Shown here: positions 30,738-35,656 of the stretch, piece by piece
How the letters are laid out: each line of letters opens with the position of its first letter
Numbering within the stretch: the first letter of the stretch is position 1
Assembly (NCBI GenBank): GCA_003136675.1
Contig: PLFE01000141.1
Coordinates: 17,829-81,828, forward strand
Direction of reading: 5' to 3'
Length of the DNA stretch: 64,000 nt
DNA from: Bryobacterales bacterium
GTDB lineage: Bacteria; Acidobacteriota; Terriglobia; Bryobacterales; Bryobacteraceae
Program-made: the position numbers and the translations under genes
The notes under the pieces: generated by a model
Told to the model about the DNA's origin: nothing
Databases searched by the model: none
The model's input: only the letters and a program-made list of their open reading frames with translations

Positions 30738-31943
30738 ATGAAAGAGAGACTTTCGGAATCTGACGGCCTGGCCGAATCGCGAGCGGAAACGGACCGTTTA
30801 TTCGGGCTTTTGACGGATGGCGACCTCATGATTCGGCCCTTGCCCCAGCGGCACCGCTTGATTTTCTATTTGGGACACCTCGAAGCCTTCGACTGGAACC
30901 AGGCCGGGCGCCTGGCCTTGGGTGAACCGCACATCGAAAAGAGTCTGGACCAGCTTTTTGCGCGCGGAATCGATCCCGAGCCCGGTCAGTTGCCAGCCGA
31001 TCAGCCATCCGACTGGCCCTCAGTGGAGCAGGCTTATGGCTACGTCGCCCAAGTCCGCGAGCGCCTAGACGAAATCTGGAGCGAAGTTCCGCCGGAGATC
31101 CAGCAAACTGCAATCGAGCACCGCTGGATGCACGCGGAGACGCTGGCCTATCAGCTGCATAATCTGCCGTTCGAGATGAAGCGAAAGCCGGCGGTAGCAC
31201 GGGAGTCGTCCGGCCCGCCTCCGGAAAGTCGATTTCTGACCATTCCAGCCGGGAAGGCCACGATGGGCCGGAGGCCCGGCACGCAATTCGGTTGGGACAA
31301 TGAGTTTAATGAATTTTCAGTGAACGTGCCTGAGTTCTCCGTGGCGGAGCACAAAGTCACCAATGCCGAGTATCTGGAATTTGTGAATCAAGGCCATCCG
31401 CCTCCTTTCTTCTGGACGCGTGAAGGCGATCGGTGGTTCTACCGCGGCATGTTCGAATCACTACCTTTGCCGCTCAACGCGCCGGTTTACGCGACCCAGA
31501 CGGAAGCAACTGAGTACGCCAAGTGGCGCGGCGCGGACGTGATGACGGAGGCGCAATTTCATCGCGCCGCATATGGAACAACCGGCGAAGGCGAACGGGA
31601 ATATCCGTGGGGCGACGAACCCGGAGTACGCGGTAATTTTGATTTCCGGCACTGGGACCCTACTGCGGTTACCGAGGATAGCGGCGGCCGCAGCGCGTTC
31701 GGCGTGGCGCAGTTAGTTGGAAACGGCTGGGAGTGGACCAAAACACCGTTCGGTCCGTTTCCCGGATTTCAGCCGCGCCCGAACTATCCCGGCTATTCGG
31801 CGGACTTCTTCGACGACAGCCACTTCGTTTTGAAAGGAGCATCGCCGCGCACCGCAAAGGTACTTACGCGACGATCGCTCAGAAACTGGTTTCGTCCGGA
31901 GTATCCCTATCTCTATGCGACCTTTCGCCTGGTGGAAAACTAG
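30738..31943 (+). CDS. egtB: EgtB-type nonheme iron sulfoxide synthase (DinB + FGE/SUMF1 domains)
   Basis: A 401-residue enzyme. EgtB joins hercynine to a thiol (gamma-glutamylcysteine or cysteine) using oxygen and Fe(II). The DinB-like half carries the iron site: YLGHLEAFDW (first His, about residue 47) and EHRWMHAETLAYQ, the HxxxHxE motif (about residues 122-128). The FGE-sulfatase half has FSVAEHKVTNAEYLEFV, YPWGDEP, GNGWEWTKTPFGPFPGF and the end NWFRPEYPYLYATFRLV. The ATG at 30738 has AAAGGTG upstream. The stop overlaps egtD (TAGTG). Without egtA or egtC nearby, direct use of cysteine, as known for another acidobacterial EgtB, is possible. Confidence 0.87.
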   Translation: MKERLSESDGLAESRAETDRLFGLLTDGDLMIRPLPQRHRLIFYLGHLEAFDWNQAGRLALGEPHIEKSLDQLFARGIDPEPGQLPADQPSDWPSVEQAYGYVAQVRERLDEIWSEVPPEIQQTAIEHRWMHAETLAYQLHNLPFEMKRKPAVARESSGPPPESRFLTIPAGKATMGRRPGTQFGWDNEFNEFSVNVPEFSVAEHKVTNAEYLEFVNQGHPPPFFWTREGDRWFYRGMFESLPLPLNAPVYATQTEATEYAKWRGADVMTEAQFHRAAYGTTGEGEREYPWGDEPGVRGNFDFRHWDPTAVTEDSGGRSAFGVAQLVGNGWEWTKTPFGPFPGFQPRPNYPGYSADFFDDSHFVLKGASPRTAKVLTRRSLRNWFRPEYPYLYATFRLVEN

Positions 31944-32938
31944 TGACTAAACAGCAACTCGCAGTCCGATTTGACCGGCGGCTCGCCCAGCAGTTCGCCC
32001 TCCAATTCAACCAGGATGTGTTGCGCGGATTGACCAGTGAGCCGCAGAAATGGCTTTCCGCACAATATTTCTATGACGAGGTGGGGTCGGCTCTTTTCGA
32101 GGCCATCACCGCTCTACCGGAATATGGGCTCACGCGTGCCGATTCACGCCTGTTGCAGCGGCACGCGGCGGAGATGGTTCGCTTCCGTCCTGAACCGCTT
32201 CACATCATCGAACTCGGAAGCGGATCGGGCGCGAAGACGCGCTGGCTGCTGGAGGCCGAGGCAACCCGGCATGGAACCGCACGCTATACAGCGATCGATG
32301 TTTCGGCAGCCGCGCTTGAAATGTGCCGGACCACGCTGGGCCGGATACCCGCGGTCGAAATCGAAACCGAGAACGCCACTTATCTGGACGGTGTACGGGT
32401 CGCCTTGCGGAATCGGCAGCCGGGCGAACGGGTTCTGATTCTGTTTCTGGGCAGCACAATCGGTAACTTCCCGCTACCCGATGCGGTACAACTCCTGATC
32501 GAATTGCGAGGCTCTCTACAATTCGGAGACGGACTTTTGCTGGGTACAGACCTGATGAAGCCCATCGAACAGCTCCTTCTGGCTTATGACGATCCGGCCG
32601 GGGTCACGGCGGCGTTTAACCGCAATCTGCTGGCCCACATTAATCGGGAGCTGGGCGGCAAGTTCGATCTGGGAGCGTTTCAACATGACGTACGGTTCGA
32701 TTCGGAGGAGAGCCGCATCGAGATGCACTTACGGAGTGTACGGCCCCAGACGGTTTGGATCGAGGCGCTCGACCGGGGGTTCCGTTTTGGGGCCGGCGAA
32801 ACCATCTGGACGGAATCCAGCAGAAAGTTCACTATGGATGGCGTGAAGCAACTGGCTGCCGCGTCGGGTTTTGAACCGCGCATGCACTGGACGGATGACG
32901 AATGGCCTTTTGCGGAAAGTTTACTCGTTGCCGAGTGA
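31943..32938 (+). CDS. egtD: L-histidine N-alpha-methyltransferase (hercynine synthase)
   Basis: A 331-residue EgtD that trimethylates histidine to hercynine with S-adenosylmethionine. Typical stretches are GLTSEPQKWLSAQYFYDEVGSALFEAI, LPEYGLTRADSRLL with the substrate Tyr, the SAM motif IIELGSGSGAKTRWLL, ATYLDGV, ILFLGSTIGNF, and the C-terminal IWTESSRKFTMDGVKQLA with Glu/Ser residues for substrate binding. The GTG start at 31943 overlaps the egtB stop by one base. The pairing of egtB and egtD defines an ergothioneine-type pathway. Its end overlaps the ABC ATPase gene. Confidence 0.93.
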   Translation: MTKQQLAVRFDRRLAQQFALQFNQDVLRGLTSEPQKWLSAQYFYDEVGSALFEAITALPEYGLTRADSRLLQRHAAEMVRFRPEPLHIIELGSGSGAKTRWLLEAEATRHGTARYTAIDVSAAALEMCRTTLGRIPAVEIETENATYLDGVRVALRNRQPGERVLILFLGSTIGNFPLPDAVQLLIELRGSLQFGDGLLLGTDLMKPIEQLLLAYDDPAGVTAAFNRNLLAHINRELGGKFDLGAFQHDVRFDSEESRIEMHLRSVRPQTVWIEALDRGFRFGAGETIWTESSRKFTMDGVKQLAAASGFEPRMHWTDDEWPFAESLLVAE

Positions 32939-33665
32939 GCCGTTAGCGGTCGAATTTCGCGACGTAAGCTATCTGGCCTCAGGCCGGCCGATTCTGAATC
33001 ATCTGTCCTTTCAAGTTCCGGCTGGACAGACTCTCATCCTGCTGGGACGCAGCGGCTCCGGGAAAACCACGGCGCTCCGGTTGATCAACGGATTGCTCAT
33101 GCCATCGAGCGGCCAGGTTCTTGTCGGAGGGCGTCCCGTTTCCGAATGGGACCTGATCGACCTGCGACGCAAAACGGGGTATGTGATTCAGGAGTCGGGT
33201 CTTTTCCCGCACTTCACGGTGGAGCGGAATGTAGGCTTGGTGCCTTCGCTCTTGAAATGGGCGGCTCCGGAGCAAGGCGCGCGCGTTCGCGAACTTCTGG
33301 ATCAAATTGGGCTGCCGCATGCGGAGTTCGGCCGGCGCAGGCCGGGTGAACTCTCCGGCGGGCAGCGGCAGCGGGTGGGGGTAGCCCGCGCGCTGGCCGC
33401 GCGGCCCGGTTTGATGCTGCTGGATGAACCGTTCGGAGCTCTCGATCCGGTGACGCGCCTGGAACTGCAGCGGCAGCTTCTGGACCTGCGGGAACGCGAA
33501 CTCATCACCTCGGTCTTCGTCACGCACGATGTCCGGGAAGCATTGAAACTCGGCACGGTGATTGGATTGCTAAACCGCGGCGAACTGGAATTCTTCGGGT
33601 CACCAGCGGAGTTTCAGGAGTCGGAGGGGGATGAGGCGCGCCGTTTTCTGGAGGTGCTCAAGTGA
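32928..33665 (+). CDS. ABC transporter ATP-binding protein, OpuCA/ProV type
   Basis: A 245-residue ATPase of the glycine-betaine/choline/carnitine importer class: Walker A LLGRSGSGKTTALRLINGL, Q-loop VIQESGLFPHF, signature ELSGGQRQRVGVARAL, Walker B LMLLDEPFGALDP and H-loop VFVTHDVREAL. It lacks the C-terminal CBS pair of osmoregulated OpuCA proteins, so it may not be controlled by ionic strength. The TTG at 32928 is preferred (GGAAAG nine bases upstream, short overlap with egtD); an ATG at 32895 would overlap by 44 bases. Its end overlaps the permease gene as GTGA. The chaining to egtBD suggests the cargo is ergothioneine or a related betaine. Confidence 0.92.
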   Translation: MPSEPLAVEFRDVSYLASGRPILNHLSFQVPAGQTLILLGRSGSGKTTALRLINGLLMPSSGQVLVGGRPVSEWDLIDLRRKTGYVIQESGLFPHFTVERNVGLVPSLLKWAAPEQGARVRELLDQIGLPHAEFGRRRPGELSGGQRQRVGVARALAARPGLMLLDEPFGALDPVTRLELQRQLLDLRERELITSVFVTHDVREALKLGTVIGLLNRGELEFFGSPAEFQESEGDEARRFLEVLK

Positions 33666-34273
33666 TTCCGCACGGAATGCTGGAAGACCTCGGTGAACTG
33701 TCCCTGGAGCATCTGGAGATGGTGTTCATTGCGATGCTGGCTGCGGCGGCGATCGCGATTCCCGGGGCCATTCTGCTTTCTCGCAAACCGCGCATCAGCC
33801 GCTGGGGATTAGGATTCGCCAACATCCTCCAAACCGTCCCCAGCCTCGCGCTGTTCGGGTTTCTGATCCCCATTCCATTCCTGGGCGTTGGCAAAGCAAC
33901 GGCGGTAGTCGCGCTCACTCTCTACGCGCTGCTACCCATTCTGCGCAACACGCTGGTGGGAATCACGGGAGTGGACGCGGCGGTTCGCGAATCGGCCGTT
34001 GCCATGGGGATGACGCCGGGGCAGATTCTGTGGCAGGTGGAATTGCCGCTGGGCGCGAAGGCGATTCTGGCCGGAGTGCGCATCGCCACCGTGACCACCA
34101 TCGGCACAGCCACCATTGCGGCCGCCATCGGCGCGGGCGGCCTGGGCGTTTTCATCTTTCGCGGGATTGCCGAATTTGACACGGTCCAGATTCTGGCTGG
34201 GGCAATTCCCGCTGCTCTGATGGCGCTGCTGGCGGATGAGTTACTTGGATGGGTGGAGCGACGAGTCGCATGA
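33662..34273 (+). CDS. ABC transporter permease, OpuCB type
   Basis: A 203-residue membrane protein with about five to six helices, the normal size for OpuCB/OpuCD permeases. The first helix follows EDLGELSLEHLEMVFIAML, and the coupling region is the EAA-like loop GVDAAVRESAVAMGMTPGQILWQVELPLG. Further helices include ILAGVRIATVTTIGTATIAAAIGAGGLG and a C-terminal one near ALMALLADELLGW. The start is GTG, four bases inside the ATPase gene; the stop overlaps the ATG of the binding-protein gene. Only one permease gene is present, so a homodimer is expected. Confidence 0.92.
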   Translation: MIPHGMLEDLGELSLEHLEMVFIAMLAAAAIAIPGAILLSRKPRISRWGLGFANILQTVPSLALFGFLIPIPFLGVGKATAVVALTLYALLPILRNTLVGITGVDAAVRESAVAMGMTPGQILWQVELPLGAKAILAGVRIATVTTIGTATIAAAIGAGGLGVFIFRGIAEFDTVQILAGAIPAALMALLADELLGWVERRVA

Positions 34274-35139
34274 AAGCGCCGCTGGCCCTTTTGTGCCTCT
34301 TGATGCTCGGTTGTTCGGGGAAGCCGCGCATCACGGTCGGCTCGAAAAACTTCACCGAACAACTTATTCTGGGCGAAATCATCGCTCAGCAGATTGAGCG
34401 CGAACTGCACACCGACGTGCGGCGCAAGCTGGATTTGGGCGGAACATTTCTGGCGCACCGGGCGATGGTGAGCGGATCGATCGACCTCTATCCGGAATAT
34501 ACCGGCACGGCGCTCACAGCGGTTCTGAAGCAGCCGGTGGTAAAAGATCCGGCCGAGGCTCTGGCTCGCGTTCGGAAGGGCTATGCACCATGGCACATCC
34601 GCTGGATGGACCCGCTGGGGTTCGAGAACACGTTTGCCATGGCAATAAGGCGGGCGGACGCGCAATCCCGCAATGTTCGCACTCTCAGCGACGCCGGAGC
34701 TGATCAAGCGGGATGGCGCATGGGCGCGGGCTACGAATTCGAGCAGCGCCCCGACGGGCTCCCGGGTTTAGTTAAGACGTATGGCTTGCGCGTCGATGGC
34801 GCGGTGAAAACGATGGATCTTGGTCTGCTCTACAGGGCGCTGGCGCAGAATGACGTGGATATGGTGGCCGGCAATTCCACCGACGGCGCACTGAGCGTTC
34901 TACCGGTCGAGGTGCTGAAGGATGACAAGCGCTATTTCCCGCCGTATGAAGTGGCGATTATTGTCCGGGAACAGGCCTTGGCCGAGTTTCCGGGGCTCGA
35001 AACAGCACTCGCAAAGCTGAGTGGAAAAATCACCACCGGGATGATGCGCAAGTGGAATTACGAGGTGGATGGGAAACATCGACCGGTCCGCGAGGTTGCA
35101 GCGACGGCTTTGGGGGAGATCGAACGCCGCGGGCCGTGA
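34270..35139 (+). CDS. substrate-binding lipoprotein of an OpuCC/EgtU-like importer
   Basis: A 289-residue periplasmic binding protein. A lipobox (LLMLGC) follows the leader, so it is lipid-anchored. The type II fold starts with ITVGSKNFTEQLILGEIIAQ, then GSIDLYPEYTGTALTAVL, GYEFEQRPDGLPGLVKTYGL, and NDVDMVAGNSTDGAL, all conserved in OpuCC-class proteins that bind quaternary amines such as betaine, choline and carnitine. EgtU of pneumococcus, where the domain is fused to the permease, binds ergothioneine; here permease and binding protein are separate. The ATG overlaps the permease stop as ATGA. The ligand is inferred from context, not shown. Confidence 0.88.
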   Translation: MKAPLALLCLLMLGCSGKPRITVGSKNFTEQLILGEIIAQQIERELHTDVRRKLDLGGTFLAHRAMVSGSIDLYPEYTGTALTAVLKQPVVKDPAEALARVRKGYAPWHIRWMDPLGFENTFAMAIRRADAQSRNVRTLSDAGADQAGWRMGAGYEFEQRPDGLPGLVKTYGLRVDGAVKTMDLGLLYRALAQNDVDMVAGNSTDGALSVLPVEVLKDDKRYFPPYEVAIIVREQALAEFPGLETALAKLSGKITTGMMRKWNYEVDGKHRPVREVAATALGEIERRGP

Positions 35140-35155: not shown

Positions 35156-35656
35156 CTATTTCGCCTCAAACTGCGCCAGTTCCCGATTCTTCCGCACCTG
35201 ATCAATTGGGAAAACCTGGTTGTGGATCACCAGCCAGATTCCCGCGGGAAGAATCCTCGCCGCCAGCAAACTCTCCGTAAGATTCTGCAATCCATCCGAC
35301 CGTTCAAAACCAAGCGGCGTCATGGCCCCGGTGAAAACAATAGGCACGCGTAGATCCTGCAAATGCACCTTCAGATAAATCCCTGTGTCGACCAGCGTAT
35401 CCGTGCCATGCGTGATGACGATTGGACCCGGATCTTGCAGCGCCGATTCCACCGCTTGCAACACCTGCCTCCGGTCGCCGTCCGTCATCTCCAGACTGTC
35501 CTTGTTCATCAGATGGCGTACTGAGATATGCGAATCCGGAAGACGCAGCTGACTCAAATAGCGGTCGATCTTGGTCTCCAGATTCTGCACCTGGCCAGAC
35601 TGTTCCGAATAGATTTTCTCAATGGTGCCGCCCGTGGAAAGCAAATGGATTTTCAC
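35156..35656 (-). CDS. single-domain asparaginase-like protein
   Basis: A 166-residue protein that contains only the N-terminal catalytic domain of the L-asparaginase family: LLSTGGTIEKIY with the nucleophile Thr (about residue 10), the second catalytic motif ITHGTDTLVDT (about residue 82) and FTGAMTPLGFERSDGLQNL. Full enzymes have about 330 residues; the C-terminal domain that completes the active site of the tetramer is absent, and the end (NRELAQFEAK) is not abrupt. Short forms of this kind exist in databases as asparaginase-domain proteins of unknown activity. It converges on the binding-protein gene with 16 bases between stops. Confidence 0.83.
   Translation of the reverse strand: MKIHLLSTGGTIEKIYSEQSGQVQNLETKIDRYLSQLRLPDSHISVRHLMNKDSLEMTDGDRRQVLQAVESALQDPGPIVITHGTDTLVDTGIYLKVHLQDLRVPIVFTGAMTPLGFERSDGLQNLTESLLAARILPAGIWLVIHNQVFPIDQVRKNRELAQFEAK

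Follow-up and report, generated by a model that had tools for sequence, protein, structure and literature searches.

The stretch of DNA analysed here (the window; 64,000 nucleotides of contig PLFE01000141.1 from a Bryobacterales bacterium, phylum Acidobacteriota) carries at positions 30,738 to 35,139 five overlapping genes that join an egtB-like gene and egtD to an OpuC-class ATP-binding cassette (ABC) importer. We propose that this chain is probably one transcript for making and recapturing ergothioneine, the ligand being predicted from sequence. The link between synthesis and import is strongly supported by genome comparison, and in our best reading the importer would be EgtU-like in role and, by descent and pocket, a separate OpuC-class lineage. 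These observations point towards a kind of uptake system, for ergothioneine or hercynine, that has not been described before and that belongs to bacteria able to make ergothioneine themselves.

Results

All five genes lie on the forward strand. The egtB-like sulfoxide synthase gene (30738-31943) shares the G of TAGTG with egtD (31943-32938, GTG start), which encodes the hercynine-making histidine N-alpha-trimethyltransferase; egtD overlaps by 11 bases the gene for a ProV/OpuCA-like ABC transporter ATPase (32928-33665, TTG start), and junctions of GTGA and ATGA lead from there to a single permease gene (33662-34273) and from this to the gene for an OpuAC-type substrate-binding protein (SBP; 34270-35139), which has a lipobox-like LMLGC near its N terminus. 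Coordinates and junctions are as an earlier, sequence-only reading of this DNA had given them. With an OpuAC SBP, a BPD_transp_1 permease and an ABC_tran ATPase, the importer is complete by the domains of the OpuC/ProX-type class, the permease presumably acting as a homodimer. ABC systems of the SBP type are importers.

EgtD passes the curated cut-off of TIGR03438 (303.1 bits against 290.9) and aligns over its full length with 4uy5/4pim, with no notable difference from the mycobacterial enzyme. The product of the first gene, 401 residues long, combines DinB_2 and FGE-sulfatase domains (Pfam/NCBIfam), as EgtB-IV and OvoA do, keeps the three-histidine iron site in the same GH...EHxxxH pattern (His47, His128 and His132 align with OvoA and EgtB-IV) and ends in RNWFRP as EgtB-IV does. 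It reaches only 158.9 of the 360 bits needed for TIGR03440, the EgtB model, and its scores against the OvoA N-terminal (190) and SenA (166) models are also below their curated cut-offs; the closest solved relative is the EgtB-IV structure 8vih (178 bits). The label egtB given to it in the sequence-only reading holds as regards superfamily and iron site: judged by sequence, the protein is a member of the EgtB/OvoA sulfoxide synthase superfamily, nearest to type IV/OvoA, and not a canonical EgtB. Its substrate and regiochemistry are predicted only.

The synteny of egt genes and importer, which the sequence-only reading had singled out for checking, is not local. Among the matches listed for 396 genomes of the phylum, OpuAC and EgtD genes lie no more than 3 kb apart in 16 of the 109 genomes that have both, against a rough chance expectation from genome size of about 0.13 genomes. 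GTDB representatives were scanned with the window SBP and the flanks of the 80 closest relatives returned were fetched; egtB and/or egtD occurred in 20 of these flanks (the matches at loci L109 and L148 being weak or partial), from Acidobacteriota, two Nitrospirota metagenome-assembled genomes, Gemmatimonadota, Binatia and one Nostocales cyanobacterium, the last a looser association at 5 kb. At least four phyla are represented, and the nearest named relatives are mostly Bryobacterales. The window's order, egtB-egtD-ATPase-permease-SBP, recurs at three Bryobacterales loci (L090, L092, L094), and egtD-ATPase-permease-SBP, ATPase-permease-SBP-egtB-egtD, ATPase-SBP-permease-egtB-egtD, divergent and convergent arrangements bring the number of orders to at least five. 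In the ATPase-SBP-permease-egtB-egtD order the SBP stands ahead of the permease in one frame. Six such loci (L068, L069, L072, L074, L075 and L076) belong to a second SBP lineage, with Tyr at position 202 of the window SBP, whose chaining to egtB-egtD apparently arose independently. Most neighbour clusters carry no annotation, and egtB/egtD are by far the most frequent recurrent neighbours of the SBP relatives. The partner EgtBs are of differing types while EgtD is nearly constant across linked loci, which indicates the hercynine/ergothioneine pathway itself. We found no report of linkage between egt genes and an importer in the open-access papers searched.

In Nostoc sp. LEGE 06077 (L101, 8849-12373), downstream of the importer genes and in their orientation, lie genes for phytochelatin synthase and, one gene further on, gamma-glutamyltranspeptidase; L099, L128 and L146 also have a cluster that includes the phytochelatin synthase gene.

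In a tree of 226 SBPs, from which columns 122 and 202 had been left out, a split with support 97 separates 178 proteins that are non-aromatic at position 202, including the window SBP, from EgtU, OpuCC, every protein with Tyr or Phe at 202 and two rhizobial plasmid proteins (Ala and Gln). Within the clade residue 202 is Asn, but also Asp, Ser, Thr and, once, Gly; since Asn202 is not invariant, the clade is defined as non-aromatic at 202. SBPs from Rhizobium and Sinorhizobium plasmids were considered as members and rejected, being placed outside it. On one such plasmid, pRL12 of Rhizobium ruizarguesonis (L084, 3539-6810), an OpuAC-type SBP gene adjoins hutC and genes for a histidine ammonia-lyase-like protein, a CoA-transferase, a short-chain dehydrogenase/reductase and MaoC, possibly a histidine-betaine catabolism island.

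Presence of a clade SBP goes with presence of EgtD. Strong EgtD matches occur in 86 of the 97 phylum genomes with a clade SBP, as against 72 of the 299 others (odds ratio 25); counted by genus the figures are 45/51 with a clade SBP and 102/211 overall, and for Asn202 SBPs alone 67/71. Among Cyanobacteria, EgtD is found in 63 of 146 genomes overall and in all 32 with a close SBP relative (at least 51% identity; p 5e-15, a Fisher value that ignores phylogeny), and by comparison of coordinates the SBP and egtD genes are no more than about 8 kb apart in eight of these 32. Named genomes with SBP relatives from several phyla have strong EgtD in 31 of 38 cases. Four related genomes (G107, G285, G293 and G301, family f25) keep a clade SBP and have no strong EgtD; they are possibly ergothioneine salvagers, or their SBP may have a different substrate.

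The SBP pocket was mapped by alignment with the SpEgtUC sequence (32% identity), residue roles being taken from PMC9732360. The pocket comprises Lys26, Phe28, Thr59, Tyr77, Thr80, Phe118, Asn120, Phe122, Glu156, Arg160, Tyr188 and Asn202, and SpEgtU Lys242, Thr275, Thr296, Asn339, Glu375, Arg379 and Tyr419 are retained. The residues with which EgtU contacts the carboxylate and imidazole of ergothioneine (Lys242, Thr275, Thr296, Glu375 and Arg379) are present as Lys26, Thr59, Thr80, Glu156 and Arg160, and the head-group contact Asn120 stands beside them. In contrast, SpEgtU Gly244, Phe293, Tyr337, Tyr341 and Tyr443 are replaced by Phe28, Tyr77, Phe118, Phe122 and Asn202. The signature Gly244 is therefore absent (Gly28 together with Phe77 was found in no SBP of the phylum set), as is the Y-to-F switch of Phe293 with Tyr337, and Phe28/Tyr77/Phe118 is the ProX-type state by the same mapping. 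Nor is the four-aromatic cage of AfProX (Tyr63, Tyr111, Tyr190, Tyr214) complete: its counterparts are Tyr77, Phe122, Tyr188 and, in place of Tyr214, Asn202, at a hinge position that is Tyr in EgtU, OpuCC and AfProX and at which no solved reference in the comparison has Asn. An AlphaFold2 model of the SBP (pLDDT 93) is closest in fold to OpuBC/choline-sensor proteins, OpuCC and Helicobacter pylori EgtU (8dp6, TM 0.87).

The cyanobacterium that lives as an endosymbiont in Rhopalodia gibberula has an intact permease-SBP fusion (L144, 7278-8840; L306), while its egtD is a fragmented pseudogene with several stop codons and egtB was not found. An importer retained after loss of synthesis would fit uptake of finished ergothioneine and not supply of a precursor, a case that is only suggestive because a search of this genome at 1e-60 found no ATPase to go with the fusion.

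Discussion

In our proposed model, EgtD would trimethylate histidine to hercynine, the EgtB-like enzyme would form a sulfoxide with cysteine or gamma-glutamylcysteine as the sulfur donor, and a pyridoxal phosphate-dependent C-S lyase, predicted to be encoded elsewhere in the genome, would free ergothioneine. The SBP would then capture ergothioneine that has leaked from the cell or is supplied by fungi and other soil producers, with the aromatic cage of Tyr77, Phe122 and Tyr188 around the trimethylammonium group, Lys26, Thr80 and Arg160 holding the carboxylate and Glu156 the imidazole, and the permease and ATPase would carry it inward.

The nearest parallel in proposed function is EgtU/EgtUV of Streptococcus pneumoniae, Listeria (BilEB) and H. 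pylori, likewise of the OpuC class, with the same fold and with Lys, Thr, Asn, Glu and Arg ligand contacts in common. The organisms for which EgtU was described are not themselves producers of ergothioneine (PMC9732360), whereas the window importer occurs in producers, in one chain with the genes for biosynthesis, and its SBP, on a separate branch of the tree, has Phe28, Tyr77, Phe118 and Asn202 where EgtU has Gly244, Phe293, Tyr337 and Tyr443. Judged by these residues, the SBP does not belong to the SpEgtU subcluster, since the signature residues tested are absent from it; this lowers the case for its being an EgtU, not the case for its working like one. Indeed, ergothioneine uptake of lower affinity is noted for H. 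pylori transporters that lie outside that subcluster (PMC9732360). The sequence-only reading had also contrasted the separate permease and SBP genes with the fused EgtU, which is true of this locus and is not diagnostic, because relatives of the SBP occur both as separate genes and as permease fusions. AfProX, OpuCC and OpuBC share with the window SBP the OpuAC family, Tyr77, Phe118 and the overall fold; they differ in having Tyr at 122 and 202, where the window has the clade-typical Phe122 and Asn202, and the genomic partner of the window SBP is egtD.

A rival explanation is a general quaternary-amine importer, for glycine betaine, choline or proline betaine in osmoprotection or nutrition, that happens to be kept with the egt genes, for example because both are stress genes. 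Among solved structures the SBP comes nearest, in sequence as in fold, to choline/acetylcholine-type, OpuC and ProX proteins, and the ProX-type state of residues 28, 77 and 118 agrees with such a role; the SBP is, moreover, the sole OpuAC protein of its 6.1 Mb, 93% complete genome, in which no BCCT carrier was found, so that without it neither class would offer an evident route for taking up betaines. However, we regard this explanation as unlikely, as a generic osmolyte importer would not be expected to be tied to egtD in 86 of 97 genomes and in 32 of 32 Cyanobacteria, nor to be linked anew to egtB/egtD in differing orders, with no other neighbour family, among clusters that mostly lack annotation, approaching their recurrence; residue 202 also differs from that of every betaine binder compared. 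The lack of CBS domains in the ATPase, which the sequence-only reading had taken as a sign against osmotic function, is real and counts for little, because the ATPase beside an Enterococcus EgtU-type protein has no CBS match either.

Within the pathway, the ligand second in likelihood to ergothioneine is hercynine (histidine betaine), imported to supply EgtB with ready precursor. The physical chaining of egtB, egtD and importer would suit it, hercynine too has the betaine and imidazole groups that the retained residues contact, and the common partner is EgtD and not one type of EgtB. Yet the operon's own EgtD already supplies hercynine, the importer is intact in the Rhopalodia endosymbiont with its broken egtD and no EgtB found, and EgtU, albeit of another lineage, binds hercynine about 10,000-fold more weakly than ergothioneine (PMC9732360); we hold hercynine to be an improbable ligand. 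Some other molecule of thiol metabolism, such as cysteine, a gamma-glutamyl peptide, the hercynyl-cysteine intermediate, selenoneine or a thiohistidine, seems to us more improbable still: the EgtB-like enzyme is equally close to the OvoA, SenA and EgtB models, cage residue 202 is altered and the Nostoc importer precedes phytochelatin synthase and gamma-glutamyltranspeptidase genes, but the protein class binds quaternary amines, three cage aromatics are left, and the partner common to the loci, EgtD, produces a trimethylated histidine.

Ergothioneine is the ligand we favour, and several findings weigh against it. The specificity residues of EgtU are missing from the SBP, one cage Tyr being Asn202, and the retained Glu and Arg are also present in the betaine binder AfProX, so that these two are not ergothioneine-specific; 11 of the 97 clade-SBP genomes have no strong EgtD; the Fisher p-values ignore phylogeny; the endosymbiont's ATPase was not found; and egtE had matches only below cut-off in the source genome, with a model that also matches unrelated genomes. 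Of the proposal in the sequence-only reading that the cell both makes and salvages the thiol, the tie between synthesis and import is borne out by synteny and EgtD co-occurrence, and the ligand is a prediction. The comparison of the pocket with EgtU and OpuCC, which it had called for, came out divided, the contact residues Lys, Thr, Glu and Arg being kept, the EgtU signature absent and Tyr replaced by Asn202.

On a wider view, we see about an even chance that the clade is a second lineage of ergothioneine importers, with a polar residue at 202 and usually Phe122, through which producers among the Acidobacteriota, Cyanobacteria, Nitrospirota and Gemmatimonadota recapture their own or environmental ergothioneine, and that OpuC-class importers became linked with egt genes on two or more independent occasions, in this clade and in the Tyr202 group with the ATPase-SBP-permease-egtB-egtD order. 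If so, a conserved make-and-recapture unit in producers, Cyanobacteria and soil Acidobacteriota included, would be a sign that ergothioneine passes between organisms of soils and mats as an antioxidant that is shared or leaks out, many annotations as 'glycine betaine transporter' would need correcting, and the clade would supply binding proteins, ready for testing, whose pocket differs from that of EgtU.

Beyond the chain, the reverse strand of the window carries at 35156-35656 a type I asparaginase-like open reading frame of 166 residues, which corresponds to the N-terminal part of a 337-position model and looks truncated.

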